Of a stretch of DNA of 64,000 nucleotides, positions 5,040 through 34,240 are shown one piece after another. The translations under genes were made by a program, and so were the position numbers. A model generated the notes under the pieces. The model was not told the DNA's origin, did not search any database, and worked only from the letters and a program-made list of their open reading frames with translations. Within the stretch, counting starts at the first letter, position 1. Every line of letters starts with the position of its first letter. Source of the stretch: Stentor roeselii (lineage: Eukaryota > Ciliophora > Heterotrichea > Heterotrichida > Stentoridae); NCBI GenBank assembly GCA_006503475.1, contig RSEH01000172.1, positions 1 to 64,000 on the forward strand. The letters run 5' to 3'.

Positions 5040-5672
5040 ATGGAGCCAAACCGAAGATTCGAAACAATCCAAAAATCCACTAAAACTCTTCAAATCCCTT
5101 CAGAAGATTCAGGGTCATCAAAATCTCGAAAGTCCTCATTTTCCGACTGCTCAAGCCCGATGCATCTCTCCAGTTTTTCACCAAATTCTCAAAAAATCCT
5201 TGAAACCCAAGGAAAAATGCTGAAAATCCTCCAGGCGCAAGTAGACGAGCTTCAAGCGATAGTCTTCGAAGGCCGCTCAAGAAACGACACAAAAAATGCA
5301 AATTTTGGGTTCGTGACTCCGAAGAAAACAATTTGCCCTTTTCAAGTCGTTCAGAAAGACTTTAGTGGTTCCAACTATGAAGAAAATATTGAGGGTCATG
5401 AATGGGTTGAGGAAAAAGAAGACTTTGTGAAAAGTCACACAAAGGTTTGTGACTTGCAAGATGAAAATAAGGGAAAAGGGAAAAATGAATTTTTGGAAAA
5501 CTTTGAGAAATCTTCTAATGTTTGGAAGGCAGGGAATCTTGGAAATTTTTACTTTGATCTGCCGAAAATTGAGTATCAATCACTCAGTGAAAGTGAATCT
5601 GATGATGAAATTGATGCTGTTGAAAGGAGGTATTTATGTAAATTTTTAGATTTTAATCATACTTTAAAGTAA
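5040..5672 (+). CDS. Ser-rich protein with STIL/Ana2-like short coiled coil
   Basis: This 210-residue protein is mostly low-complexity. Residues 10-50 are Ser-rich. Residues 51-77 form a short amphipathic coil (QKILETQGKMLKILQAQVDE and on). The spacing and the LLQAQ-type core resemble the central coiled coil of the centriole assembly factors STIL/Ana2/SAS-5, but no STAN domain is recognisable, so the link is tentative. The remainder is acidic and polar. The ATG follows TAA directly. Its last 16 nt overlap the 3' end of the convergent gene 5657-6556. Other coiled-coil proteins could look similar, so treat it as unknown with a lead. Confidence 0.65.
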   Translation: MEPNRRFETIQKSTKTLQIPSEDSGSSKSRKSSFSDCSSPMHLSSFSPNSQKILETQGKMLKILQAQVDELQAIVFEGRSRNDTKNANFGFVTPKKTICPFQVVQKDFSGSNYEENIEGHEWVEEKEDFVKSHTKVCDLQDENKGKGKNEFLENFEKSSNVWKAGNLGNFYFDLPKIEYQSLSESESDDEIDAVERRYLCKFLDFNHTLK

Positions 5673-6556
5673 ACCATGATCATTGAGACTACTAAACATG
5701 TCAAAAAAAGGGTGAAAACGCAGATGAATATTTTTAATCTTTTTGAACAGAAGCAAGTTAACTTTTTTTTTCGATTTGATAATATTTCTGTTTCATCGAT
5801 AGTTTTTATAAGATCATATTCTATCTTTTCTTTACATCGATGAGAATGTTTCATTGGTTTGAATTGATCTTCTTCAGATAATTCTTCATTCTTGTATTTT
5901 TTTGGGAGATTGTCAATTCTTGATTCTTTTTCAATATCATCTTCGTAGTTAAGATAGTTTTTATTTCTGATAACCTCTCCTTGTCGATCATTTCTTTCAA
6001 GTTTAACATTTTCATGGCTACTGTATTTCTTATCAACACATTCAGAATCAAATAAAATAAATTCATTATCTTTCGAAAAAGTCTTAAATTTGACTGTGTT
6101 ATATCCACCTCGATTTTTTACCTGAAAATCAGTGTTGCTTAGACCCAAAGGCTCTTCAATATTAATCTGTTCTTCAAATTTCTCTACCTTTTGAATTATT
6201 TCCATCGATAATTGTTTTTTTGTATCACAAGAACTGTTTAAAGATTTTAATTGACTTGAACAGGATGAGATTCCAGGAAGTGTCAAATAATTATTTTGGC
6301 AGCTGATCAAGGATAGAGACTTATTTTGTAGTTGATTAATTTTTTCTATATTTTCTGGGTTTTTCAAGAGTTGATAATTCGAGGGGTTATTGTTGTTCGG
6401 ATTCTGCATTATTAAAACTATTGACTTACAATGAATGCAAGGAAAAATTGTATTTGGACTGAAGGTTTCTTTCTGGCAGATTCCATGATGTTTTGAAAAG
6501 TTTACAAAGTGGACTTTTTGAAGCATGCAGTTCATGCAAAGAGATGAACACAACAT
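5657..6556 (-). CDS. Cys/His N-module membrane protein (family member 1)
   Basis: This 299-residue protein begins with a compact Cys/His module: C7, C10, H24, C27, C40, C43, including SKHHGIC and CIHCKS. The six positions match exactly, counted from the Met, in two other genes of this window (6625-7875 and 15881-16624). The spacing suggests a zinc-binding module. A long polar, Asn/Glu/Lys-rich region follows. Residues of about 276-297 are strongly hydrophobic, preceded by KKKLTCFCSKR, and end almost at the C-terminus, so the protein looks tail-anchored with its zinc module in the cytosol. I do not recognise the family. The stop is TGA and overlaps the convergent 5040-5672 gene. Confidence 0.75.
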   Translation of the reverse strand: MLCSSLCMNCMLQKVHFVNFSKHHGICQKETFSPNTIFPCIHCKSIVLIMQNPNNNNPSNYQLLKNPENIEKINQLQNKSLSLISCQNNYLTLPGISSCSSQLKSLNSSCDTKKQLSMEIIQKVEKFEEQINIEEPLGLSNTDFQVKNRGGYNTVKFKTFSKDNEFILFDSECVDKKYSSHENVKLERNDRQGEVIRNKNYLNYEDDIEKESRIDNLPKKYKNEELSEEDQFKPMKHSHRCKEKIEYDLIKTIDETEILSNRKKKLTCFCSKRLKIFICVFTLFLTCLVVSMIMVYFKV

Positions 6557-6624
6557 TTTTTGTAATTTATTAAAGTTTATTAGCTTTGGGATTTGGACTT
6601 AGAATAAATTTTGAATTTTTTATC

Positions 6625-7875
6625 CTAAAAAACTTTTAATGATAAAGCTATTAAGAGGATTAGAATCCCAAAAAATATATAAAGTTTGAAAGACTTTTTT
6701 GGTCATTGTTTAACCTTTTCTCAACTTTTTCGGGTTCTTTGAAATTAGGGTTTTTTTCGGCTTGTTCTTTGGGTTTTTCGTTTTCATTTTCAAATTCGTA
6801 ATTTTTATTTTGTATTGGATTTCCTGTCAAACTATTGATCGAAATGTGATCATCGTTTAACCTTTTCTCAACTTTTTCGGGTTCTTTAAAATTAGGGTTT
6901 TTTTTTGGCTTGTTCTTTGGGTTTTTCGTTTTCATTTTCAAATTCGTAATTTTTATGTTGTATTGGATTTCCTGTCAAACTATTGATCGAAATGTGATCA
7001 TTGTTTGACCTTTTCTCAACTTTTTCGGGTTCTTTAAAATTAGGGTTTTTTTCGGCTTGTTCTTTGGGTTTTTCGTTTTCAATTTCAAATTCGTAATTTT
7101 TATGTTGTATTGGATTTCCTGTCAAACTATCGATAAAAATGTGATCATCTTTATTTTTTTCTATTGTTCCAGGCAGTTTGTCGATTTTAGTTTCTATTGC
7201 CGAATAGTTTTCAAGTATTACTGGTTTTCTTTGGACAATCTTGACATTTAAGGCATGTTCTGTATCAACTATAAAATTAATGGAATTTTTATTAGAATTA
7301 ATCGAATTTTGATCAATATCAGGAAATATTTCAATTTTTTCGCTATTTTCAGGGATATTCTTTATATTTTTTTCCTTTAAATCATCTTTTTCTAGTTCTT
7401 TGTTGAAATTTGAAGTCTCAGTCTTTTCTATTTCAAAAATATTTAAATGGTTCACTATCGGTGTTCCTTTATTGATTTGTTTAAAATCAAAGTGATTTTC
7501 AATTCTTTCTACATTTTGAGGAAATTTTTCAATATTTTCCCCAGCCTTAAAATGACAGGGCTCAAGTATTTTCAATTTTAACTTCCTATTATCAACTCCT
7601 ACAGTTTTCTTTGCCCCAATCAAGAAATCATCGACACTTTTATTTGAAATAATTGTAATATCTTCATTTTCATTAGACTTTGAAACAAGTTCATTTTTGC
7701 TAGGCTTTGAAAGATCAAGATTCTTCGTCACAAGAATGAATGAAGCACAATGAATACATTTTACACAATTCAAACCCGAAATATCTTCCATTTCACAAAT
7801 CCCATGAAACTTTGAAAAATTCACAAAACTTTTCTTTGGATTTCTGCAAAATAGACATAATATCTCGCAATTCAT
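6625..7875 (-). CDS. Cys/His N-module repeat protein with two frame breaks (family member 2)
   Basis: The N-terminus has C7, C10, H24, C27, C40 and C43 in the same register as member 1, with SKFHGIC and CIHCAS. After a polar region come three copies of a 49-residue (147-nt) repeat containing SLTGNPIQ, KNYEFE and FKEPEKVEKR. As printed, the frame stops at 6892 because the second repeat carries a run of nine A (coding strand) where the other copies have G plus seven A. The repeat continues in another frame. A short A-run near 6700 would have to gain one base to return to the original frame. That frame then encodes a hydrophobic tail (FFGILILLIALSLKVF) and stops at 6625. With both shifts the protein is tail-anchored like member 1. 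The breaks may be assembly errors or real decay. Confidence 0.65.
6700..7150 (-). repeat. Tandem coding repeat, 147-nt unit, three copies
   Basis: Three nearly identical copies lie inside the 6625-7875 gene. The marker GTGATC recurs at 6846, 6994 and 7141 on the + strand. The distances are 148 and 147 nt, so one interval carries a single extra base, in a T run (A run on the coding strand). The copies are similar enough to suggest recent expansion. Confidence 0.9.
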
Positions 7876-7989
7876 TTTTATAAACTTCTTTAAAATTTAA
7901 CTTCAACACTAAAAAATCAACTTTTCATCAATTCCTTCTTTTTTCTTACTTTCTTCAATTTTTCTCTCAACAAACTGACATATAAAGAA

Positions 7990-8733
7990 ATGTCGGCCCC
8001 TAAGAGAATAAAATCAACTCGGTTTGAAATGGATCAAATAAAAATAGAATCTCTTGAAAGGGAAGTCGAAAAACTAAAACTCGACCTCGAAAAATCTCAG
8101 CGAAAAAAAGATGAACTTTTTAAGATTTCAATTGAATACAAGAAAATCTGTGAAGAAGAAATTGAAAAAAGCCAGTTGTTAATTCAAGAGATTGATAGAC
8201 TTAATGTTGCACTTTTGAGAAAAGATTCGAAAATCGCCAGAAATGAAGAATTTTCGCAAGGGTCTTCGAAAAGATTAGAAAATTTGATGAAAATTATGAA
8301 AGTTTATAGAGAAAAATTTGAGAATCATCAAGTTTTTGAACAAGTTTTCGATGAAGAACTTATGAAAAAGAAGCTGCTGTGGACTGACTTGGATAAAATC
8401 ATTATTAAACTCTTGAAAATCGTTGATGAGTGGGTACCTGTTGTTACTCACTCTAATCATAAAAAAACATGTAGTTATGATGAAAATGCTAATAATCCCT
8501 TGTTTGCGAAATTAAAACCTAAAATTATAATAAAGAGGCCACCAAGTCTAGCTGAAATTAGCAGAGATATACAAGAAAATGTGAAAAATAGCAAAGAAAT
8601 CATTAAAAGCTGCATAACTTCTCTTGAATCCGGCTGCTTATCAACCAGAAGCAATCCAAGTTCCAACTCAAGCATGACAAAAGGAAAAGTGCGAGTATAC
8701 CGTCGTGAAAAATCAACATCTCAACTTGTATAA
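7990..8733 (+). CDS. Coiled-coil protein, unknown
   Basis: This 247-residue protein starts with a basic stretch (MSAPKRIKSTRF). It then forms a predicted coiled coil from about 17 to 80, rich in E, K and L. The second half is basic and Ser-rich, ending in KVRVYRREKSTSQLV. No enzyme motif is visible. It is divergent from the Cys/His N-module gene at 7875, with 114 nt between starts, and convergent with 8752-9915, with 18 nt between stops. Function is unknown; a cytoskeletal role would fit the composition but is not shown. Confidence 0.7.
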   Translation: MSAPKRIKSTRFEMDQIKIESLEREVEKLKLDLEKSQRKKDELFKISIEYKKICEEEIEKSQLLIQEIDRLNVALLRKDSKIARNEEFSQGSSKRLENLMKIMKVYREKFENHQVFEQVFDEELMKKKLLWTDLDKIIIKLLKIVDEWVPVVTHSNHKKTCSYDENANNPLFAKLKPKIIIKRPPSLAEISRDIQENVKNSKEIIKSCITSLESGCLSTRSNPSSNSSMTKGKVRVYRREKSTSQLV

Positions 8734-8751
8734 GATTCTAATTGAAAATTA

Positions 8752-9915
8752 TCATCTAAAGCTCGAATCTAATTCACTCAACTCAACTTTCTGAGTTTTT
8801 TCCATTTGTTCTTCCGACTCATCTCCACTGACCCTCTGCAATTTAAAGATTTTGCGAATTCCGACTTCAGTTCTAGAAGCTTTCAACATAGGAGTAGGAT
8901 TAAGACTTGCATTAGCAAAGTACTTCATTCTAACAGTATCAGGTCTATCAACTCCCGATTCATTTTCACTGAAATCTTGATTTGCCCTGTTCAATGTGAG
9001 TCTTTTCGGAGAAGTTGAAGAATGTCCATATCTAAAGTTTTCTTTCATGTTTTTTGAAGTTTGAGGTTGAAAAAGCGAAAGATCTTTTGAAGTTTGACCT
9101 TGGTTCAGAGAGTTTTCTTTTTTTAGAAGTTTTGAAGTACTTCTAGAGCTAAAAGTTTTGTTTTTCAGAAGTTCATTCATTTTTTTGTCTTGATTTTCGA
9201 ATAAATCGACTCGTTTTTTCGCCTTTTCGAGTTTTTGCGTGTTTAGAGAGTTCTGGTAACGCATTCCGAAGAGATAAGATTTATCTCGAAAAAAAGAAGC
9301 ATCGAAAAGACGGTTTCCACAGAGTTGCTTGCAGTTAAAGTTAAATTCTTCAATAGTGACAACAGGTTTATTTCCCCTGAGCTTTCTGCTGAGTTCTTCT
9401 AAAACAAAGTGTTTTCCTGTTCTAAGAACATTTTCGTAGTTGATAAGTTCAAAGTTGTCCTTATTTCTTCCAGTTAAAAATGCACAGATGTAATCAACAG
9501 ACACTTTTATCAGATTTTCTAACATTTCATCGACTTTAATCTTTGACAATGACTTGTTTTTAGTCTCGTAAAGACTTACCCAGTATCTTAGTTTCGGTTT
9601 TAACTCGTCTTTTGAAAGAAGTAAGAAAAGAGAATTCAGTTTCAGTGATGAGTACTTTTTTGTGGAGTTCCCTTTCGAGTTACCTCGCTCGAAAAGGTCG
9701 TAAAATTCGGAAAACTCTTGAAAAGGGACTGAACAACTTTTTAATAAGTGGTTCAACTCGGGGTAGTGGATGTAAGAAGATGTATTCAAGGTTGGAAGCT
9801 TCTTGAGAAGGTGCTTGTAGGAAAGACTTGAGTAACCTAAACGAGACTCGAATGGAACTAACAGGTTTTCTTCTATTTTTAGTTCTGTTTCTTTTCGGGA
9901 TGTGCAGCAGCCCAT
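8752..9915 (-). CDS. Putatively myristoylated and palmitoylated EF-hand-like protein
   Basis: This 387-residue protein starts MGCCTSRKE: Gly2 and Ser6 fit N-myristoylation, and Cys3 and Cys4 are candidate palmitoylation sites, so membrane attachment is likely. Residues of about 45-210 are helical, with a spacing reminiscent of degenerate EF-hand scaffolds (for example LKLNSLFLLLSKDELKPKL), but I see no intact calcium loop. The rest is basic, Ser/Lys-rich and probably disordered, with a small acidic C-terminus. The ATG is directly preceded by TAA. The stop is TGA followed at once by in-frame TAA. The EF-hand relation is weak, while the acylation signal is clear. Confidence 0.75.
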   Translation of the reverse strand: MGCCTSRKETELKIEENLLVPFESRLGYSSLSYKHLLKKLPTLNTSSYIHYPELNHLLKSCSVPFQEFSEFYDLFERGNSKGNSTKKYSSLKLNSLFLLLSKDELKPKLRYWVSLYETKNKSLSKIKVDEMLENLIKVSVDYICAFLTGRNKDNFELINYENVLRTGKHFVLEELSRKLRGNKPVVTIEEFNFNCKQLCGNRLFDASFFRDKSYLFGMRYQNSLNTQKLEKAKKRVDLFENQDKKMNELLKNKTFSSRSTSKLLKKENSLNQGQTSKDLSLFQPQTSKNMKENFRYGHSSTSPKRLTLNRANQDFSENESGVDRPDTVRMKYFANASLNPTPMLKASRTEVGIRKIFKLQRVSGDESEEQMEKTQKVELSELDSSFR

Positions 9916-10151
9916 TTATTATTTGTGGTTTGGATGATAAGCTTTTAGGTTGTGGACTCAAGGAAATTGGGATCATGCCGAAAATTAATTTTTTTTACGT
10001 TTTTTCGAATATTTAAGGTTTTTAGAATTTCGTCATGAATCGAGTAAATTTTTATGATTAAAAATCGAGTTTCTTTTAAGGTCATCGATTTTCTTGATAA
10101 ATCAGGATTCAACTTGTGATAAGAAACTAATTACCATACAATCTAAACTAA
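9916..10151. other. Short intergenic spacer
   Basis: This is a T-rich spacer of about 236 nt between two minus-strand genes. It should hold the promoter of 8752-9915. I see no other feature in it. Confidence 0.4.
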
Positions 10152-11012
10152 TTAAAAGACTAAACAAGCTTCACAACATGTTTCCCTAGCTTTTCTCTTT
10201 CGTATAGAAGACTTAAACGTTTGTTCATCATCATTAAAATTTACCATGAGGCTACTTTGCATATCTTTATAAACAACAGCATTTTTATCATTTTCCCCGA
10301 TGATGTTGTTGACCTCATGATATTTTTTATTAAGAATTTTCTTCCGATCATCAATGCTCATGACAAGCTTGAAATTGACTTTCACTTCAAATTCTGCTCC
10401 TTTTTTATTCATCTGGTACTCAAGTTCTTGCTTTTCAGCAGCTTTCATATAATAAATCTCGTCAATAATCTTTGCAATAGGAAGACTTTCAGAGTGAATA
10501 ATGAACTGACTTCCATCATCATCAACAATAAAATCAATCTTAACAATATCCGTTATTTTCACATCAAGAGATTTCACATCACTTTCTTCTAATTTCAACT
10601 CTTTTCCACCAAGCTTTACTTTTAATGTGATGGGTCCTTTATAGCTTTGGCTTTTCTGAACTTTTATATTGAGACTAGTTGAAGTTATTTCAAGTTTGCT
10701 GATTTCCTGCAACAATGTCGAGATGTCAATCACTTCTTTCAAATGAGAGGCTTTTTTCATTTGAAACTCGCATTCAAGTTCTTTGAATTTCAAAAGGCGC
10801 TTCGATGCAAGCATTGAAAAAAGTTTATGGTCGTAGCTTGATTCAACGAGTATTGCCCGTAACAAGTCACTTGCTTCGTTCGGGGTATCGAGGAAGAAAG
10901 GAATCTCAGGAAGTGGAGGTTTTGGGTAATACGTGTAAAGATTTCTTTCGATAGTCTCTGCGATTTCTTTTAATTCAGCTTTTTGAGTATCAACCTGTTC
11001 GTCTTTGCCCAT
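10152..11012 (-). CDS. Unknown protein ending in a CLVF prenylation-like box
   Basis: This 286-residue protein has an N-terminal helical part (about 1-110). The middle (about 112-230) has alternating hydrophobic strands (ITLKVKLGGKELKLEESDV and a segment with KIDFIVDDDGS) that suggest a beta-sandwich, possibly C2-like. The C-terminus reads RKARETCCEACLVF. CLVF fits a CaaX box with X = Phe, a preferred GGTase-I substrate type, and CC plus C upstream could be palmitoylated. It shares an 85-nt divergent promoter region with the HOOK homologue. The ATG is preceded by TAA. I do not recognise the family; membrane anchoring through the tail is inferred. Confidence 0.72.
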   Translation of the reverse strand: MGKDEQVDTQKAELKEIAETIERNLYTYYPKPPLPEIPFFLDTPNEASDLLRAILVESSYDHKLFSMLASKRLLKFKELECEFQMKKASHLKEVIDISTLLQEISKLEITSTSLNIKVQKSQSYKGPITLKVKLGGKELKLEESDVKSLDVKITDIVKIDFIVDDDGSQFIIHSESLPIAKIIDEIYYMKAAEKQELEYQMNKKGAEFEVKVNFKLVMSIDDRKKILNKKYHEVNNIIGENDKNAVVYKDMQSSLMVNFNDDEQTFKSSIRKRKARETCCEACLVF

Positions 11013-11097
11013 TTATTACTTTAAGAAGATATTTATTCGTTTTCAGGTACAGTGAGTCTTTGACTGCGAAAGTAATTTCCATTATAAGAAATACTGA

Positions 11098-13377
11098 ATG
11101 GCTGACCTAGGTCAAAGCCTTATGACATGGGTAAGGTTCACTCAGCTTAACTCGAATGAACTTCGCTCGCATTGTGAAAGTCTTGAAGACCTTGCAGACG
11201 GTCTTCATTTTTACTACCTTCTTAACTTAATGTATTAGAAATTCAGATCGATTGACTACTTCGACTTGGAAAGCATCACAAAAGATGTGAAAAACAACTG
11301 GGCGTTAAAACTAGGAAACTTAAGAAGACTGAAGAAAAGTATGGACCGATATACTTTAAATGAACTTAAACTTGATATCTCCAAGTATGATAAAATCGAC
11401 CTGCCACTCATCGCGCGGACCAGTAGTTCAGTGGAAATTCTAAAACTCTTTGAATACATCGTCTTAATCATCGTCAGTTGTCCTCTAAAGCCAGTTTTCA
11501 TCAAAAGAATCATGGAACTCGATGAAGAAGACCAAATGCAAATGATGTTCTTTATACAAAAAGTCATGGCAAATGAAGAAGAACCGAATCAACAACAAGA
11601 AATTGATAAAAAAGAAATAGACTCTTTAAGAGCTGAAAAAAAAAAACTTTCTGATAAACTTTTGAACCTTGAACAAGAACTCACTCTTGCACATGAAGAA
11701 TACGCTGCGCTTCATTCAGAACTGCAACATTTCAAGGTTGAAAATGAAAGACTTTCTCATGACATTGGGCGAAAGTCGGTCTCGGAAGTTAAGGAAAGAA
11801 AAGCTGCTGACCTTGAAATGATGGTCAGAATTGGAGAAAAAGATGAAGTTATTTCTGATCTTAAGAAATTGTTGGAAAGAAATAGAAAAAAATATGAAAG
11901 TGATATTAATCAGGTTAGAGATGAACTTGATATTGCTAATAATAAACTTGTTGAAGCCGCTGGGCATGAAAAATTACTTGTTCAGTATAAAAAAAGATTG
12001 GAAAGTTGTAACTCTTTTAAAGCGCAGGTTGATGAACTGCAGAAACAAAATGAAATCTTGAGTGCTCAGGTCTCCAACCAAAGAATTGATATCGAAAATC
12101 TTATCGTATGTAAAAAACAATTTGAAACCTTTCAAGAAAAATACGAACAAGAAAGAGTCAGATCTGAAACCTTGCTTTTCAGCATCGAAAATAAGGAAAA
12201 TTCCATAAAAAAACTCGAAAAAAACTTAAAAGACTCCAGTGAAAATGTTATTTTCCTAAGAAAAAGACTAGAAGAGCTCGAAACCGACCATCGTTTCGAA
12301 AATTCAGCAATGAGTGAAGAATCTTTCAACAACGAGCACCTTCCAGTAAGCCGAGACCGACTGAAACCTTCAGAACAAAGCGAGCTTCACACAAAAGAAC
12401 TTTTAAAACTAACTGAAAAGCTCTTAAAAAAAACCGAAAAAACTCGAATTTTAAAAGAAACCTTAAAAATGACAACTGAAGACTTTTCAGTTCTTTTAAT
12501 CCAAAACAGTTACAACATGTCTTCCCAGCAAGAATTCATCGACGAGATCCAAAACAACAACCTTTACCTCAGCGAAGAGATCCAAAAGTTAAGCGATTCA
12601 ATAAAAGCAAAAGATTCTGAACTTTTCATCCACAACCAGACCTTGGAAGACTTGGAAGACGTGAAAAATTCTAAACAAAATCTTCAAAACAGCTACAAAT
12701 CTCTTTTAAACGAAAAAGAAGAACTAGTGAAAAGACTCTCAGACCTGACCTCAGACCTACTCGACCTCAAGTCAGGCTTAAACTTAAAAGAAAACCTTAT
12801 AAAAGACCTGAATTTCAAGGTAAAAGACCTGGAAGACAAAATCACTGCAATTCAATTTGAAAGTGGACCAAAGTCAGCAACTAAACAAAACGCTTTAGCT
12901 GAACAAAGAATCAGCGACTTGCAGCAAAGGATCAAAGAACTTGGGAATGAAAACGTTAAAATCATTGAAGACAGCAGGGAACAGATAAAAAATGCGAAGG
13001 AGGACTATGAAAATGAACTCAGGAAAAAAGATGAAGAAATGATTAGACTTACTGAAGAGGCTACTAGTGAATTGATGAAACATCGGGAACAACTTGTCAT
13101 GCAACTGCAAAGTGAAAGAAGAAACTCGATTATGAACTTTCAGAGGGCCATGTCTATCAGAGAAAGCCCTTTGGCTTGCAGTAATAATAAAGAAGTCTTC
13201 AAGTTGAGAGAAGTTCTTATGGAAAAAGAAAAGGAAATTCATAAGTTAAACAAAAATAACAGAGAACTCAAAAAGTGCTGGAAACAAAATGCTAAGTTGT
13301 TGAAAGCTGTTTGGAAGGAACTTGAAAAGGAAACTGGGAAAATACAGGATGCTGTTAAAGATTCGATTATTGTTTAA
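11098..13377 (+). CDS. HOOK-family dynein adaptor, one 15-nt intron
   Basis: Joined across the intron at 11232-11246 the protein has 754 residues. The first 165 or so match the HOOK N-terminal calponin-homology-like domain. A W-x-x-F segment and LEDLADGLHFYYLLNLI come first. ITKDVKNNWALKLGNLRRLKK follows in place of the family's I-DV-NW-K-NLKK. A P-L/VE-L-I block and LDEEDQMQMMFFIQKVM come next. Residues 170-740 form a long coiled coil, as in HOOK proteins, which link cargo to dynein and dynactin on microtubules. The start ATG lies upstream of the intron; without splicing a TAG follows at once. The cargo-binding C-terminus cannot be assigned. Basal-body or phagosome transport are plausible roles. 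Confidence 0.88.
11232..11246 (+). other. 15-nt spliceosomal intron in the HOOK gene
   Basis: The sequence GTATTAGAAATTCAG has GT-AG ends and an A at position 10. Removing it joins the upstream calponin-like segment to the rest of the HOOK domain in frame (phase 2). Retention gives an immediate TAG. Confidence 0.93.
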
Positions 13378-13689
13378 ATGTTTTGGAGGAGATTGATGTT
13401 GGAATGTTGAAGATTTTAAGGTTTTAATAATTTTTGTTGATTGTTAAGATTGTTGGATTTTGGGGTTATTGAGAATTGGTTGAAGGGTTTTTCTTTGAGA
13501 GTCATTTTATTGTTAAAATTTGAAATTTTTATCAAAAAGTTCAAATTTAATACCAAGCCTGGCTAGTCTTATAAAATCCAAAAATTTTAATTCCTTTAAA
13601 TGTCTTTTGTAACTGACAACCCAACTTCCTGCAAAGGCTTTTCTTTTCAGTCGTTAATTTTTAAGTTCTCTAATCCTTATCTTATCTAA
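13378..13689. other. Intergenic spacer between convergent genes
   Basis: This spacer of about 312 nt lies between the 3' ends of HOOK (+) and a GST gene (-). Its left part is G/T-rich on the + strand, typical of 3' flanks in this window. No ORF or RNA gene is visible. Confidence 0.4.
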
Positions 13690-14358
13690 CTAAAGACCTA
13701 AGCTTGCGACCGTTTTGTTCAAGACTTCATGAACTTTCACTACAGCAGGAATGGCACCGATTCGATCATACCATGACTGGACTTCAGGATAGGGTGAAAG
13801 ACTGAACCTGATGAATCTAGTCTGAGCAATCTCACAATAAACGAAGACATCAGCGATGCTAGCTTGTCTAGTCCTAGCAACATATCCAGTTTCGCTGATA
13901 AGCCATTTAAGAGTTTCAAAAAACTCAAGAAACTTGCTTCTTAGAGGAGCTTCTTCAGCTGGTGTCAATTCAGGAGCGCCCATGAATCGAGGTCTGACGA
14001 ACTTAGGACCAACGTACCCAGAGATGGCTTCTCGAGTATTCTTGTGATGCCAATGCATGTAAGAATCAACTCTTACTCTCACCTTCGGGTCTTTGGGGTA
14101 CCATTGGTTGTCTACTCGAAATGCGTCAGCCAGGTAGGAAATTATTGAACCACTTTCCCAGACGTTGAAGTTGTTGTGGACAATTGCTGGAATCGACTGG
14201 AAAGGATTGATCCGGGCGTATTCTGGAGTAAGGTGCGCTCCTTTCGTTAAGTCTACTAAATGGAACTCGTGTGGAATGTTTGATAGCTCACAGTAGGCTA
14301 AAATTGTACGAGAAGGCTGGGAAAGCATATGACCGTGGACTTGGACTGTATTTGACAT
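13690..14358 (-). CDS. Glutathione S-transferase, theta-like (copy 1)
   Basis: This 222-residue protein has the usual cytosolic GST length and layout. A thioredoxin-like N-terminal domain carries SQPSRTILAYCEL near residue 14 (catalytic Ser/Arg region of theta-type enzymes). It also carries NPFQSIPAI with the cis-Pro loop, and ESGSIISYLAD, the Glu-Ser pair that binds the glutathione gamma-glutamyl group. A helical C-terminal domain follows, with SIADVFVYCEIAQ. It would conjugate glutathione to electrophiles in the cytosol. A paralogue sits next to it at 15049-15717 on the same strand. The ATG is preceded by TAA. The class call (theta or related) is less certain than the family. Confidence 0.9.
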   Translation of the reverse strand: MSNTVQVHGHMLSQPSRTILAYCELSNIPHEFHLVDLTKGAHLTPEYARINPFQSIPAIVHNNFNVWESGSIISYLADAFRVDNQWYPKDPKVRVRVDSYMHWHHKNTREAISGYVGPKFVRPRFMGAPELTPAEEAPLRSKFLEFFETLKWLISETGYVARTRQASIADVFVYCEIAQTRFIRFSLSPYPEVQSWYDRIGAIPAVVKVHEVLNKTVASLGL

Positions 14359-15048
14359 TTATTTTGATGATCTAAAATGATTCAGATGTAAGACCAGAGT
14401 CAGAGATATATAATTATATTATAAGTTTAGATTATTGTTATACAAATACTAATAATTTACAAATGAATTCTTTGTATGGGTTCAAGTAATTTTACTTGGT
14501 TTAAGGTTTTGTAACTGGCAGTTATTTCATAATTTAAATAGTTAATTTTATATTAAAATTTTTCTAGTTGAAATAAATGTCTTTTGAACAAAATGATAAT
14601 CCAATCACATAAATCAGCAATCAACTTGTTTGTTTAAATAATAAGATTTTTCATATAACCAGTTCAGAGCTAAATTTTAATAATATAAATATAAGTAATA
14701 ATCGGCACTAAAATCATTATAGTTAATAAGATTCTGATTTCTTTTTTAGAGAGGTGGCTAATCAAAGGCATCATACGTGTTTTGTCGGATAGATTGAAAA
14801 ACTGTTAAAGTGCTTCAAATTAACGATACTTAAAATATATGATTGAAATTAATTATCAGTTTGAATGTTTTTCCAGCTAATCAAAACAAATTCAGAAACC
14901 TCTCTGATCACCAAATCAAAAAAAATCCAACTCTCACGGTAAAACTTTCCTAGCATAAAAACCCCTTTATTTCCCCAAACACTCCATCTAAATTATATTA
15001 AAATTTCTAAAACTAAATCATTTCCTCTAACTTTCTAACCTAAATAAC
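14359..15048. other. Intergenic spacer between tandem GST genes
   Basis: This AT-rich spacer of about 690 nt is long for this window. It must contain the promoter of the downstream GST copy. I find no remnant of a third GST and no RNA gene. Confidence 0.4.
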
Positions 15049-15717
15049 TTAAGGGTAATACTGCCTAACGATCTGATTCATCATTTCATGAGCTGCCACA
15101 ATTGGCTGATGAGCTCCGATTCGATTGAACCAATCATAAATTTCCCTATGAGGTCTCAAGTCAAACCCAAGAAATCCAGTCTGAGCAATTTCAGAATAAG
15201 CAAAAATATCAGCAACCGTTGCATGGCTAGTCCTCGCAACGAATCCAGTTTCACTTATAAGCCACTTCAAAGTTTCCAGTCCATTAAAAAACTTCTCTCT
15301 AAGAGGGGCTTCGGCTTCAGGGGTCAATTCAGGAGTCCCCATAAGTTTCGGGTACATTCCTTTAGGCCCGGAGTACCCTGCGATAGGTCCTTTAATATTT
15401 CCTCCATGATAGTGAAGGTAAGAGTCGACCCTTACTCTTACCTTCGGGTCTTTCGGGTACCAAGAGTTGTTCACTCGAAAAGCATCGGCTAAATAAGGAA
15501 CAATTGCGCAACTTTCCCAAGCGTTGAAGTCTCCCACGACGCAAGCTGGAATTGTTTGGAAAGGGTTGATTTTTGTGAAGTCTTCTGTTAGGTGATCGCC
15601 TTTACCGAGGTCTATTACGTGGAACTCGTAAGGAATGTTGCTGAGATCACAAAAGGCTTTTATTGTTCGAGATGGAGGAGAAAGTAAATGACCGTAGATG
15701 TGGGCCTTGTTTGACAT
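15049..15717 (-). CDS. Glutathione S-transferase, theta-like (copy 2)
   Basis: This 222-residue protein has exactly the same length as copy 1 and is clearly homologous throughout. It has SPPSRTIKAFCDL, NPFQTIPACV, ESCAIVPYLAD, and the shared block NSWYPKDPKVRVRVDSYLH. In the Glu-Ser loop, Gly-Ser-Ile-Ile is replaced by Cys-Ala-Ile-Val. The shared WYPKDPKVRVRVDSY block is the best-conserved piece and can identify this subfamily. The two copies form a tandem, same-strand duplication and may differ in substrate range or expression. The start is divergent from the RING gene at 15881. Confidence 0.9.
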   Translation of the reverse strand: MSNKAHIYGHLLSPPSRTIKAFCDLSNIPYEFHVIDLGKGDHLTEDFTKINPFQTIPACVVGDFNAWESCAIVPYLADAFRVNNSWYPKDPKVRVRVDSYLHYHGGNIKGPIAGYSGPKGMYPKLMGTPELTPEAEAPLREKFFNGLETLKWLISETGFVARTSHATVADIFAYSEIAQTGFLGFDLRPHREIYDWFNRIGAHQPIVAAHEMMNQIVRQYYP

Positions 15718-15880
15718 TTTTTATGGATTTGTGGAAGGTAGGTTAAGTTTTTTAATCATTAGAGTTATATTTGGAAATTTATTTATGGATTATAAAAATT
15801 TTGATTTTTGGATGTTAGGAGGAATTTTTTTGGAGGTTTGGGTTTTTTTTAGAATGAATTTTATAATTAAGTGTTATTTA

Positions 15881-16624
15881 ATGATTTGTACTACTTCTTG
15901 CATGCTTTGCATGGAACTTTCTGTTAAGAAAGTTAACTATGCGAAACACCACGGAATATGTGAAAAATGTTTATATCCTTCTACATCTCTAGTGAAATGT
16001 ATTCATTGCAGATCAATAGTTCCAATTTTATTCAAAAACCAACATTCTGTAGAAAACGATTTATCAAAACCTGAATTCAAAGCATGCTTCTACTGCTTAA
16101 CAATTTCGACCAATTCCACAAAACTTCAAGAATGCGATCACATAATCTGCGTAAGTTGTCTTAAAGAAGGCCTATGCCCGATATGTTCAAATAAATCTGA
16201 ATACACGACGATTAACCAGAATAAAATAGAGGTTGAATTGAAACAATCTGATATAAAAATAATCATACCCAACGAAAAAGTCTTATCACGTTCAGCCAAA
16301 GTAAGTCCTATGAAAGACCTGATAGAAAAATCAGACGATTTAGAAGGAATGATGACAGATAGACCCAATGTTAGCATCCATGACACAAACAACATAAAAC
16401 CAAAGTCCCCCAAAAAAAAGCTAAAAAACGACGACACAATATTAATCGAAAGTAAGCCAAAACTCAATATTTTTTCTGATCAGGACTTTGAACTTATCGG
16501 GATTAATCCAAACCCAAAACTTTCCTGCCTTCGAAAGTTTCTAGACAAGTGTCAATTCTTATGTAAGAAAAAAAAATCATTACAATATTCAGAAACTGAA
16601 GGAATTAATAATATTAATTTATAA
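15881..16624 (+). CDS. Cys/His N-module plus RING finger protein (family member 3)
   Basis: This protein has 247 residues when started at the ATG at 15881. That start puts C7, C10, H24, C27, C40 and C43 in the same register as the genes at 5657 and 6625 (AKHHGIC, CIHCRS). Upstream codons in the open frame overlap the GST start and are probably not used. A short C3HC4 RING follows: C70, C73, C86, H88, C91, C94, C100 and C103. RING domains usually act as E3 ubiquitin ligases, so this member may ubiquitinate targets. The C-terminal 140 residues are polar and Lys-rich with no membrane tail, unlike the other two. Its stop is one base from the stop of the next, convergent gene. Confidence 0.78.
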   Translation: MICTTSCMLCMELSVKKVNYAKHHGICEKCLYPSTSLVKCIHCRSIVPILFKNQHSVENDLSKPEFKACFYCLTISTNSTKLQECDHIICVSCLKEGLCPICSNKSEYTTINQNKIEVELKQSDIKIIIPNEKVLSRSAKVSPMKDLIEKSDDLEGMMTDRPNVSIHDTNNIKPKSPKKKLKNDDTILIESKPKLNIFSDQDFELIGINPNPKLSCLRKFLDKCQFLCKKKKSLQYSETEGINNINL

Positions 16625-26066: not shown

Positions 26067-26822
26067 CTAAAAAACCTGACACTTGCTACAAGCCTGTTCA
26101 GAAGCTTCTGATTTTCTACCTTTTCCTTCAGCGACACTATTCAATACAGATCTTCCATTCAATCTATCCAGGCACTTTGGACAAAATAATAAATTTACCT
26201 TCTCTTGACTTATACTGTTACTTGCCTGGTCTTTTAAGGTCTTAATCGAAGTTTCAAGTTCTCTTATTTTTGTATGAAGTTGATTAACGTCCATTTGAGT
26301 TGCACTTACTTCTGACTTTACTTGAGCGAGTTTTTCATTCTCAGCAGCGAAATTTTTAGTGGAATTATCGATGGCCGCTTTTAAATTCGCCAGCATGTCA
26401 ATGTTGTTTTCTTTCAAATACTGTTCTTTTCGGATTTCTTCGAGTTTCAGGTCGTTTTTCGTGTTGTTGACGATTTCGAAATTTTCGTATTTTTGTTCTA
26501 GTTCTTTTATTCGCTGTTTATCTTGGAGAGCTTCATTGAATGCTTCAGAGTTTTTTTCTTCGACACTTTGAAGTTTTTCTAAGATTTGTTTTTTTTCTTT
26601 TTGGTTTTCTTGGTCGATTTGTTCTCTGATTTCGGCGTAGTTGCACTTGTCACAGATTTTTATCTTTTTTAGATTTTTTACTCGGGCACACATGTGGTAT
26701 TTGCAGGCAGGCTGAGCACATCTTTCACAAATATTGCTACTTCTCTGATCACACCTATCAGCATTACAATATTTTCCCTTTCCCTTAGCAAGTGCCTGTT
26801 TAATCGTGAGTCCTCTTTCCAT
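26067..26822 (-). CDS. Zinc-binding coiled-coil protein ending in CQVF
   Basis: This 251-residue protein starts at the ATG at 26822. The first 60 residues hold a Cys/His-rich module (CNADRC, then CERCAQPACKYHMC, then CDKC) similar in spacing to B-box or FYVE-like double zinc sites. Residues 65-205 form a coiled coil. Near the end CPKC and CSKC form another possible zinc site. The last four residues are CQVF, a CaaX-like box with X = Phe, though its Cys could equally be a zinc ligand. It is divergent from the SFI1-like gene, with only 35 nt between starts. Function is unknown; a TRIM-like or membrane-tethering scaffold is possible. Confidence 0.7.
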   Translation of the reverse strand: MERGLTIKQALAKGKGKYCNADRCDQRSSNICERCAQPACKYHMCARVKNLKKIKICDKCNYAEIREQIDQENQKEKKQILEKLQSVEEKNSEAFNEALQDKQRIKELEQKYENFEIVNNTKNDLKLEEIRKEQYLKENNIDMLANLKAAIDNSTKNFAAENEKLAQVKSEVSATQMDVNQLHTKIRELETSIKTLKDQASNSISQEKVNLLFCPKCLDRLNGRSVLNSVAEGKGRKSEASEQACSKCQVF

Positions 26823-26857
26823 CACTTTATATTAAAATCAAACCCAAAATCCTAATA

Positions 26858-32823: not shown

Positions 32824-34240
32824 ATGCAAAAACCCCCTAATTCATTACTATCCCAGCTTCGATCACGTAAAAGCACAAAACAAGAAATAACAGCTGCTTC
32901 AGCAACAAGTGTAATAAAGTCTTACATCCAGCCAAGACTGACAAGAGACTACGTCATTTCAACCCGCTCTTCAATGACCCGCTCGTACTGCTCGACTCCA
33001 GTGAGCTCGACGTTGACCTCCACCCTGGCCTCTCCGACAAGCATCTCATCGCAACTCAGTCAAGAGCTCTTCGCAAGCCAGTCTTCTTTATACTCGACTC
33101 AAATCAAGCTGGACTCAACTGAAACTCAAAAAGATTCCTTATTAAAAAATCTTTCAGAATATCATGAAGCTATCTTCAAAGCTCGAATCACAAAATCAAC
33201 TCTGACCTTTTGTATGAAAACTTTTAAAAAAGAAGAGAAAAAGACAGAGGAAATCAGTGGATATGCGAAACTTGTGAAAATCAATAGAAATTTAAGAGAA
33301 CAGGTGGAAAATGAACAGAGTGTTAATAATATCCGATTTTTTTTGTATTTTCTTTAACTTTTTACTGAGTCTTCAGCAGAAAAATATCTTGTCGAGGAAT
33401 CAAAACAGTATTCTTTTAAAAAATAACTTGATTTTAGGGGATAAACTCAGGTTCACGTATCAATGCTATCAAGACCTTCTTTGCTCGAAACTGCTGGAGA
33501 AATATGTGTTTATTGTGAAAAAAACTACTGAAAGAAACGCGAAGGATTTGGTAAGTCGAGAAAATCTTTATGAAATCATGGACGCTTTGCTTGATTCTAA
33601 TAGGATTATAGATTCTAGCTTGTTTTTCGCAGAACAAATGCAAGTATTTTCATCTGAAAAACAGAAATTGAAGGTTTATGTGAAGGAAAAGGTAAGATAT
33701 TACTGTGTGGAAATCGAGAAGTGTGAAGAAGATGCATTTAACTTAGCTAAAAAGTACGAAAATCAACTGAGTGTCAATAGAAACTTGTGGGATGAACATG
33801 AAAAAATTCATAAAACTGTGAAAAGAATAGAAGATAATAAAAACAAAGACAAAGAAAGATTCTGCAAAAATTGCTTTAAATGGTATCAAGACAAATCAAA
33901 TTTCGCATGGTCCTGTAAACGGCACGTTGGTGAATGGAACCAGGTAAGTTACTGGTGCTGTGGAAACCTGATACGAAGTTCACCAGGATGCGTGATTTCC
34001 TACCACATTTCAGATGAATCCTCTCATATAAAAGTAGTAGATATCAGCAAAGAAGTCTGTCTTACCTGCGGAGTCATTGGCCATCCTTTCACAAAATGTC
34101 CAAAAGATCCAAATATTCTACAAAATTTCACCGACACCAAATGCGAGCTAGAGCGAGTCTTCAAAGTCCGAAACAAAGGAAGAATGAACACCGAAAAGTT
34201 CATCCGTGCCTTCAAGATCGAAAAAACTCAATTCGAATAA
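32824..34240 (+). CDS. Coiled-coil protein with Cys/His zinc-binding C-terminus, frame break near 33.35 kb
   Basis: Two frames are likely one gene. The N-terminal part (from 32824) is Ser/Thr-rich then coiled-coil, and it runs to a stop at 33357. The second frame, open from 33311, carries a coiled coil and zinc modules. These are CKNCFKWYQDKSNFAWSCKR with H, a YWCCG segment and a GC-x4-YH segment, then a knuckle-like CLTCGVIGHPFTKC. Junctions that restore the frame are a 55-nt T-rich GT-AG span (33322-33376), a 25-nt one starting near 33345, or a one-base error in the T8 run. None is a 15-nt intron. Function is unknown; RNA or protein binding through zinc is plausible. Confidence 0.6.

Follow-up and report, generated by a model that had tools for sequence, protein, structure and literature searches.

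Among described zinc-binding domains, two come closest to the protein module reported here. The first is the C3HC4 RING finger of the UHRF1/UHRF2, RNF123 and TRIM type; in RING E3 ubiquitin ligases, the hallmarks of E2 binding are a hydrophobic residue after Cys1, a Pro after Cys7 and a Lys or Arg after Cys8. The second is Zn-1, the Cys3His site of the SBP domain (Pfam PF03110), a domain so far described as plant-specific. The module stands at the N-terminus of three genes (a, b and c) in a stretch of 64,000 nucleotides from the ciliate Stentor roeselii (assembly GCA_006503475.1, contig RSEH01000172.1, positions 1 to 64,000), called the window below, and recurs elsewhere in the same genome. 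We propose that it is a docking module of about 50 residues derived from a RING finger, with a two-zinc cross-brace in which an N-terminal Cys would replace Cys3, and we give this proposal an even chance of being correct.

A large family with one N-terminal register

A preliminary description of the window reported that C7, C10, H24, C27, C40 and C43, counted from the first Met, are common to genes a, b and c. This register is indeed present in all three, as are the two motifs that went with it, which read K[HF]HGIC and CIHC[KAR]S. The six positions are right but incomplete, C3 and position 30 having been overlooked, and eight positions are conserved. When the first 51 residues of gene a were searched against the genome, gene c (E 7.0e-10) and gene b (E 1.8e-8) ranked second and third after gene a itself, among 17 matching places. 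On this sequence evidence, the three N-termini are homologous.

The family had been presented as three-member, which proved far too small, and further copies in the genome, whose absence had been named as evidence against the idea, do exist. The census covered the genome that contains the window (44.4 Mb, 522 contigs). Further members used as queries, together with a profile scan of the retrieved loci, gave at least 45 full modules on 28 contigs, 26 of them on nine contigs carrying two or more; this number is a lower bound. Two later genome searches yielded no additional true member. Three rows are excluded from the 45: C102:143566 read a second time, the C102:137039 fragment and the internal repeat of L019. 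Another candidate, at C440:98173 (E 0.012), was rejected as a different Cys-rich protein, its score against the module profile being 6.6 bits. Adjacent frames of this region (L050, C440:96600-99000) are Cys-rich and RING-like, have no N-module and look alike by eye. A tree of the modules has little resolution, with stars on 6 of its 42 inner branches.

Seven positions, C3, C7, C10, H24, C27, C40 and C43, are kept in 45/45 modules, and C10 and H24 are separated by 13 residues in every case. Position 30 holds His in 38 modules and Cys in 5; the remaining 2, genes a and b, have Glu there. The spacing between C7 and C10 ranges from x2 to x8, with C-x2-C in 16/45 and a longer loop in the other 29. 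Also, N19 is found in 41/45 modules and S21 in 33/45, and the mean net charge is +0.9. A Met lies two to seven residues upstream of C3 in 44/45 (in gene c the distance is two by eye), and C3 follows the Met by two or three residues in 39/45. Chance or composition as the source of the common register is ruled out by the E-values of the genome search and by the 45/45 conservation of the ligands.

Possible RING kinship and the alternatives

In the proposed arrangement, Cys1 and Cys2 of the RING finger would be retained as C7 and C10, His4 as H24, Cys5 and Cys6 as C27 and His or Cys at position 30, and Cys7 and Cys8 as C40 and C43. Cys3, at position 22, would have been lost and the N-terminal C3 gained, most likely filling the place of Cys3. 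Since eight positions are conserved, two zincs would fit, the first held by C7, C10, C27 and H30 and the second by C3, H24, C40 and C43. We infer zinc binding, the cross-brace pairing and the ligand swap from the pattern of residues. The Glu at position 30 may weaken the first of these sites in genes a and b.

The module profiles align with RING fingers in ligand register, with Cys3 missing. Cys1, Cys2, His4 and Cys5 to Cys8 follow one another as in a RING finger, at roughly the same distances. Also, the module precedes RING-like repeats in 36/45 proteins, each with at least one C3HC4-like repeat by pattern (172 repeats in total). Because this pattern demands Cys3, the repeats all contain it by definition; some repeats, for example in L010 (by eye), escape the pattern. 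Unlike a RING finger, the module has no Cys at position 22 (0/45), carries an extra Cys four to six residues ahead of Cys1 (C3, at x3 to x5 from C7, 45/45), usually has His in the place of Cys6, and shows Pro after Cys7 in only 2/45.

Wherever bit scores and cutoffs were displayed, no Pfam model over the module reached its cutoff. The best E-value among the 45 modules was 0.0036 (SBP), and the RING models, displayed without bit scores, matched few of them: zf-RING_5 in 2/45 (best E 0.059) and others in 1/45 each. Against the PDB sequences, the 45-module profile gave 24 matches up to E 10. Ten of these are named E3, TRIM, RNF or RING, three are chains of Tfb3, which we take to be a RING protein, and the 11 others include ferredoxins, Npl4 and one SBP. 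The best match, TRIM56 (E 0.0081), spans the second half of the module only, and those to UHRF1 and UHRF2 (E 0.043 and 0.054) span positions 5-46. A LIM domain, the top PDB match of a 17-module profile (2dar, E 0.1), was rejected, as it spans positions 35-49 only.

Profile comparisons by hhalign were set against 60 controls in which the loops were permuted and the ligands kept. The 45 modules aligned with five PDB RINGs at a probability of 82 over 43 columns and 0/60 controls scored as high, in a test that is biased because those RINGs had been picked out, directly or indirectly, by the module profile itself. With 140 RING repeats of the family's own proteins, aligned by their ligands, the 45 modules reached a probability of 41 and the 16 C-x2-C modules one of 83; in both cases 0/60 controls were as high, by a narrow margin. 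In L019, one repeat that matches the module profile (E 4e-4) combines the upstream Cys with Cys3. Three results weigh against a RING origin. For the 16 C-x2-C modules against the PDB RINGs, 6/60 controls were as high; for the 29 longer-loop modules against the own repeats, 7/60 were; and no signal was obtained against a MAFFT alignment of the 172 repeats, a noisier alignment with hhalign run without realignment. The kinship with RING fingers is supported but not settled.

These failed comparisons also speak for the most serious alternative, an independent small zinc fold whose likeness to RING and SBP comes down to the C-x2-C and H-x2-C spacing common to many zinc fingers. No library match falls below E 0.003, RING and SBP both score, and the fixed x13 spacing, N19 and S21 are the family's own. 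On the other side, the 45 modules taken together outscore all 60 ligand-kept, loop-permuted controls in both RING tests, with the PDB set and with the own repeats. We consider an independent fold unlikely, though by no means negligible.

Kinship with SBP Zn-1 was the second alternative, the second site being rebuilt from C3, H24, C40 and C43. Modules with C-x4-C match the plant Zn-1 below threshold in both the Pfam and the PDB searches, and all seven longer-loop modules of alignment A4, a set picked for this very pattern, read C-x4-C-x13-H-x2-C-x2-H. The fourth ligand of Zn-1 itself varies between His and Cys, one report describing a C4 Zn-1 in SPL group 4 (PMC10796333). When the genome was scanned with the SBP model, 4/5 matches belonged to the module family, none over the cutoff (best score 19.2 bits, Pfam cutoff 27); the scan also gave below-cutoff matches in 3/14 control genomes. 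Unlike the SBP domain, 16/45 modules have C-x2-C instead of C-x4-C, the linker to the CxxC is shorter, and both the Zn-2 ligands and the basic C-terminal tail are lacking. The resemblance lies mainly in the first half of the module. Within the module alignment, no conserved His and Cys follow C43. Because RING scores better over the whole module and a second SBP site is missing, we did not file the module under SBP, and we hold this kinship improbable. Its fuller form, an SBP Zn-1 homologue outside plants with at least 45 ciliate copies, an N-terminal Cys completing the second site, and one ancient, possibly RING-related, ancestral finger, appears slightly more improbable again.

Least probable of all is that C3 is no zinc ligand but a lipid-modified N-terminal Cys, making the module a membrane tether with one zinc site complete and the other not: its place just after the Met and the tail anchors or CAAX-like ends of other members would suit this, but C3 keeps its distance from C7 throughout the family alongside the absence of Cys at position 22, and tail-anchored proteins would scarcely need lipidation.

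The preliminary description called the module undescribed. No Pfam model exceeds a displayed cutoff, and no description of the module was present among the literature matches listed; a status free of any kinship is unsupported, given the alignment in RING register and the partial likeness to SBP Zn-1.

Parts that follow the module

The preliminary description had further suggested that a zinc-binding module at the N-terminus is reused and joined to different effectors. The N-terminal position and the variety of the C-terminal parts were confirmed, and zinc is suggested by ligand conservation. A predicted membrane helix (tail anchor) is present in 4/45 proteins and a CAAX-like end in 2/45, CAAX ends being prenylation signals. 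Counts of features at the C-terminus are minimum numbers, since the retrieved sequence stops before four of the 45 frames do (L036, L037, L011, L020). A Pfam scan of ten member proteins gave one kinase match (L016, 33.3 bits, cutoff 31.7) and one WD40 match over cutoff (L033, 29.9 bits, cutoff 27); a second protein of the ten matched WD40-type models below their cutoffs. L033:561-4898 consists of the module, 8 RING-like repeats by pattern and then WD40-type repeats, and L037:435-5258 has the same order with 12 RING-like repeats, without passing the WD40 cutoff. In the kinase-like part fused to the module (L016:1043-2221), HRD is kept and NFS stands instead of the usual DFG (by eye); it is perhaps a pseudokinase. 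L028 looks coiled-coil-like by eye.

Among the 172 downstream repeats, 53 have a hydrophobic residue after Cys1, 12 a Pro after Cys7 and 20 a Lys or Arg after Cys8. None of the 172 combines all three, which favours a docking or scaffolding role rather than catalysis as a ubiquitin ligase. With a RING-derived module, as preferred above, the N-terminus would act as a common docking or dimerisation unit, through which C-terminal parts as varied as RING-like repeats, membrane anchors, WD40 and kinase-like parts are delivered to a partner they share. This role, rather than that of an E2-binding ubiquitin ligase domain, is put forward less firmly than the fold.

The three genes and their surroundings

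The features of the three genes are collected in Table 1.

Table 1. Coordinates and architecture of genes a, b and c in the window.
Feature	Positions	Strand	Description
Gene a, 299 amino acids	5657..6556	-	N-module, Asn/Lys-rich middle, C-terminal hydrophobic tail
Gene a N-module	6404..6556	-	C3 C7 C10 H24 C27 E30 C40 C43
Gene a predicted tail-anchor membrane helix	5660..5743	-	Hydropathy scan; residues 286-313 of 313-residue stop-to-stop frame
Gene b as drawn in the preliminary description	6625..7875	-	N-module, repeat units, hydrophobic tail; frame broken
Gene b N-module	7726..7875	-	C3 C7 C10 H24 C27 E30 C40 C43
Gene c, 247 amino acids	15881..16624	+	N-module, then one C3HC4 RING-like finger
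Gene c N-module	15881..16030	+	C3 C7 C10 H24 C27 C30 C40 C43
Gene c RING-like finger	16085..16186	+	C69 C72 C85 H87 C90 C93 C99 C102

Two of the genes had been credited with a C-terminal membrane helix. That of gene a is supported by the hydropathy scan. Gene b is not a single open frame. It reads through without a stop between 7875 and 6892; beyond this the repeat units (about 6720-7160, by eye) continue in a different frame, and near 6625-6700 the hydrophobic tail returns to the first. The frame changes, at 6892 and about 6700, each adjoin a run of A (by eye). This double change represents either assembly errors or a genuine compensated change.

The open reading frame of gene c extends upstream of 15881 (308 amino acids counted from 15698); we placed the start Met at 15881 because most other members begin M-x(1-2)-C. 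The RING finger attributed to this gene is present as a C3HC4-like finger, which stays below the Pfam cutoff for zf-RING_5 (18.6 bits, cutoff 27.9). In the PDB the finger has 43 matches, every one a RING protein if BIRC7, PML and CBL are counted as such, with a best E-value of only 0.3. The hydrophobic residue after Cys1 and the Pro after Cys7 are present, the Lys or Arg after Cys8 is not. Beside gene c stand two similar tandem proteins of 222 amino acids (13690-14358 and 15049-15717), glutathione S-transferase-like by eye.

Four window proteins outside the family have CAAX-like ends: CKIW (1230-1652), CVLW (2138-2629), CLVF (10152-11012) and CQVF (26067-26825). A likely intron at about 33300-33380 measures some 50-67 nt by eye, compared with 15-16 nt in Stentor and Blepharisma. 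The long frames of the window end in TAA (20), TAG (6) and TGA (5), and Stentor is reported to use the standard genetic code (PMC9505925). Repeats of CCCTAACA are found at contig starts (e.g., C40:4) and ends (C59, C69); the telomere repeat of Blepharisma is reported to be CCCTAACA as well (PMC9942806). Stop codon usage and telomere repeat together make a heterotrich-like ciliate likely.

If the RING-derived reading is true, a very common zinc fold would have shifted one ligand to its N-terminal tail and spread in this form through a large gene family in a single ciliate, where it is coupled to many different partners. The family would then offer a simple test of how freely the zinc sites of the RING fold can be rebuilt. 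It would also put a name to at least 45 uncharacterised proteins, most of them with RING-like repeats that do not have the usual E2-binding residues.
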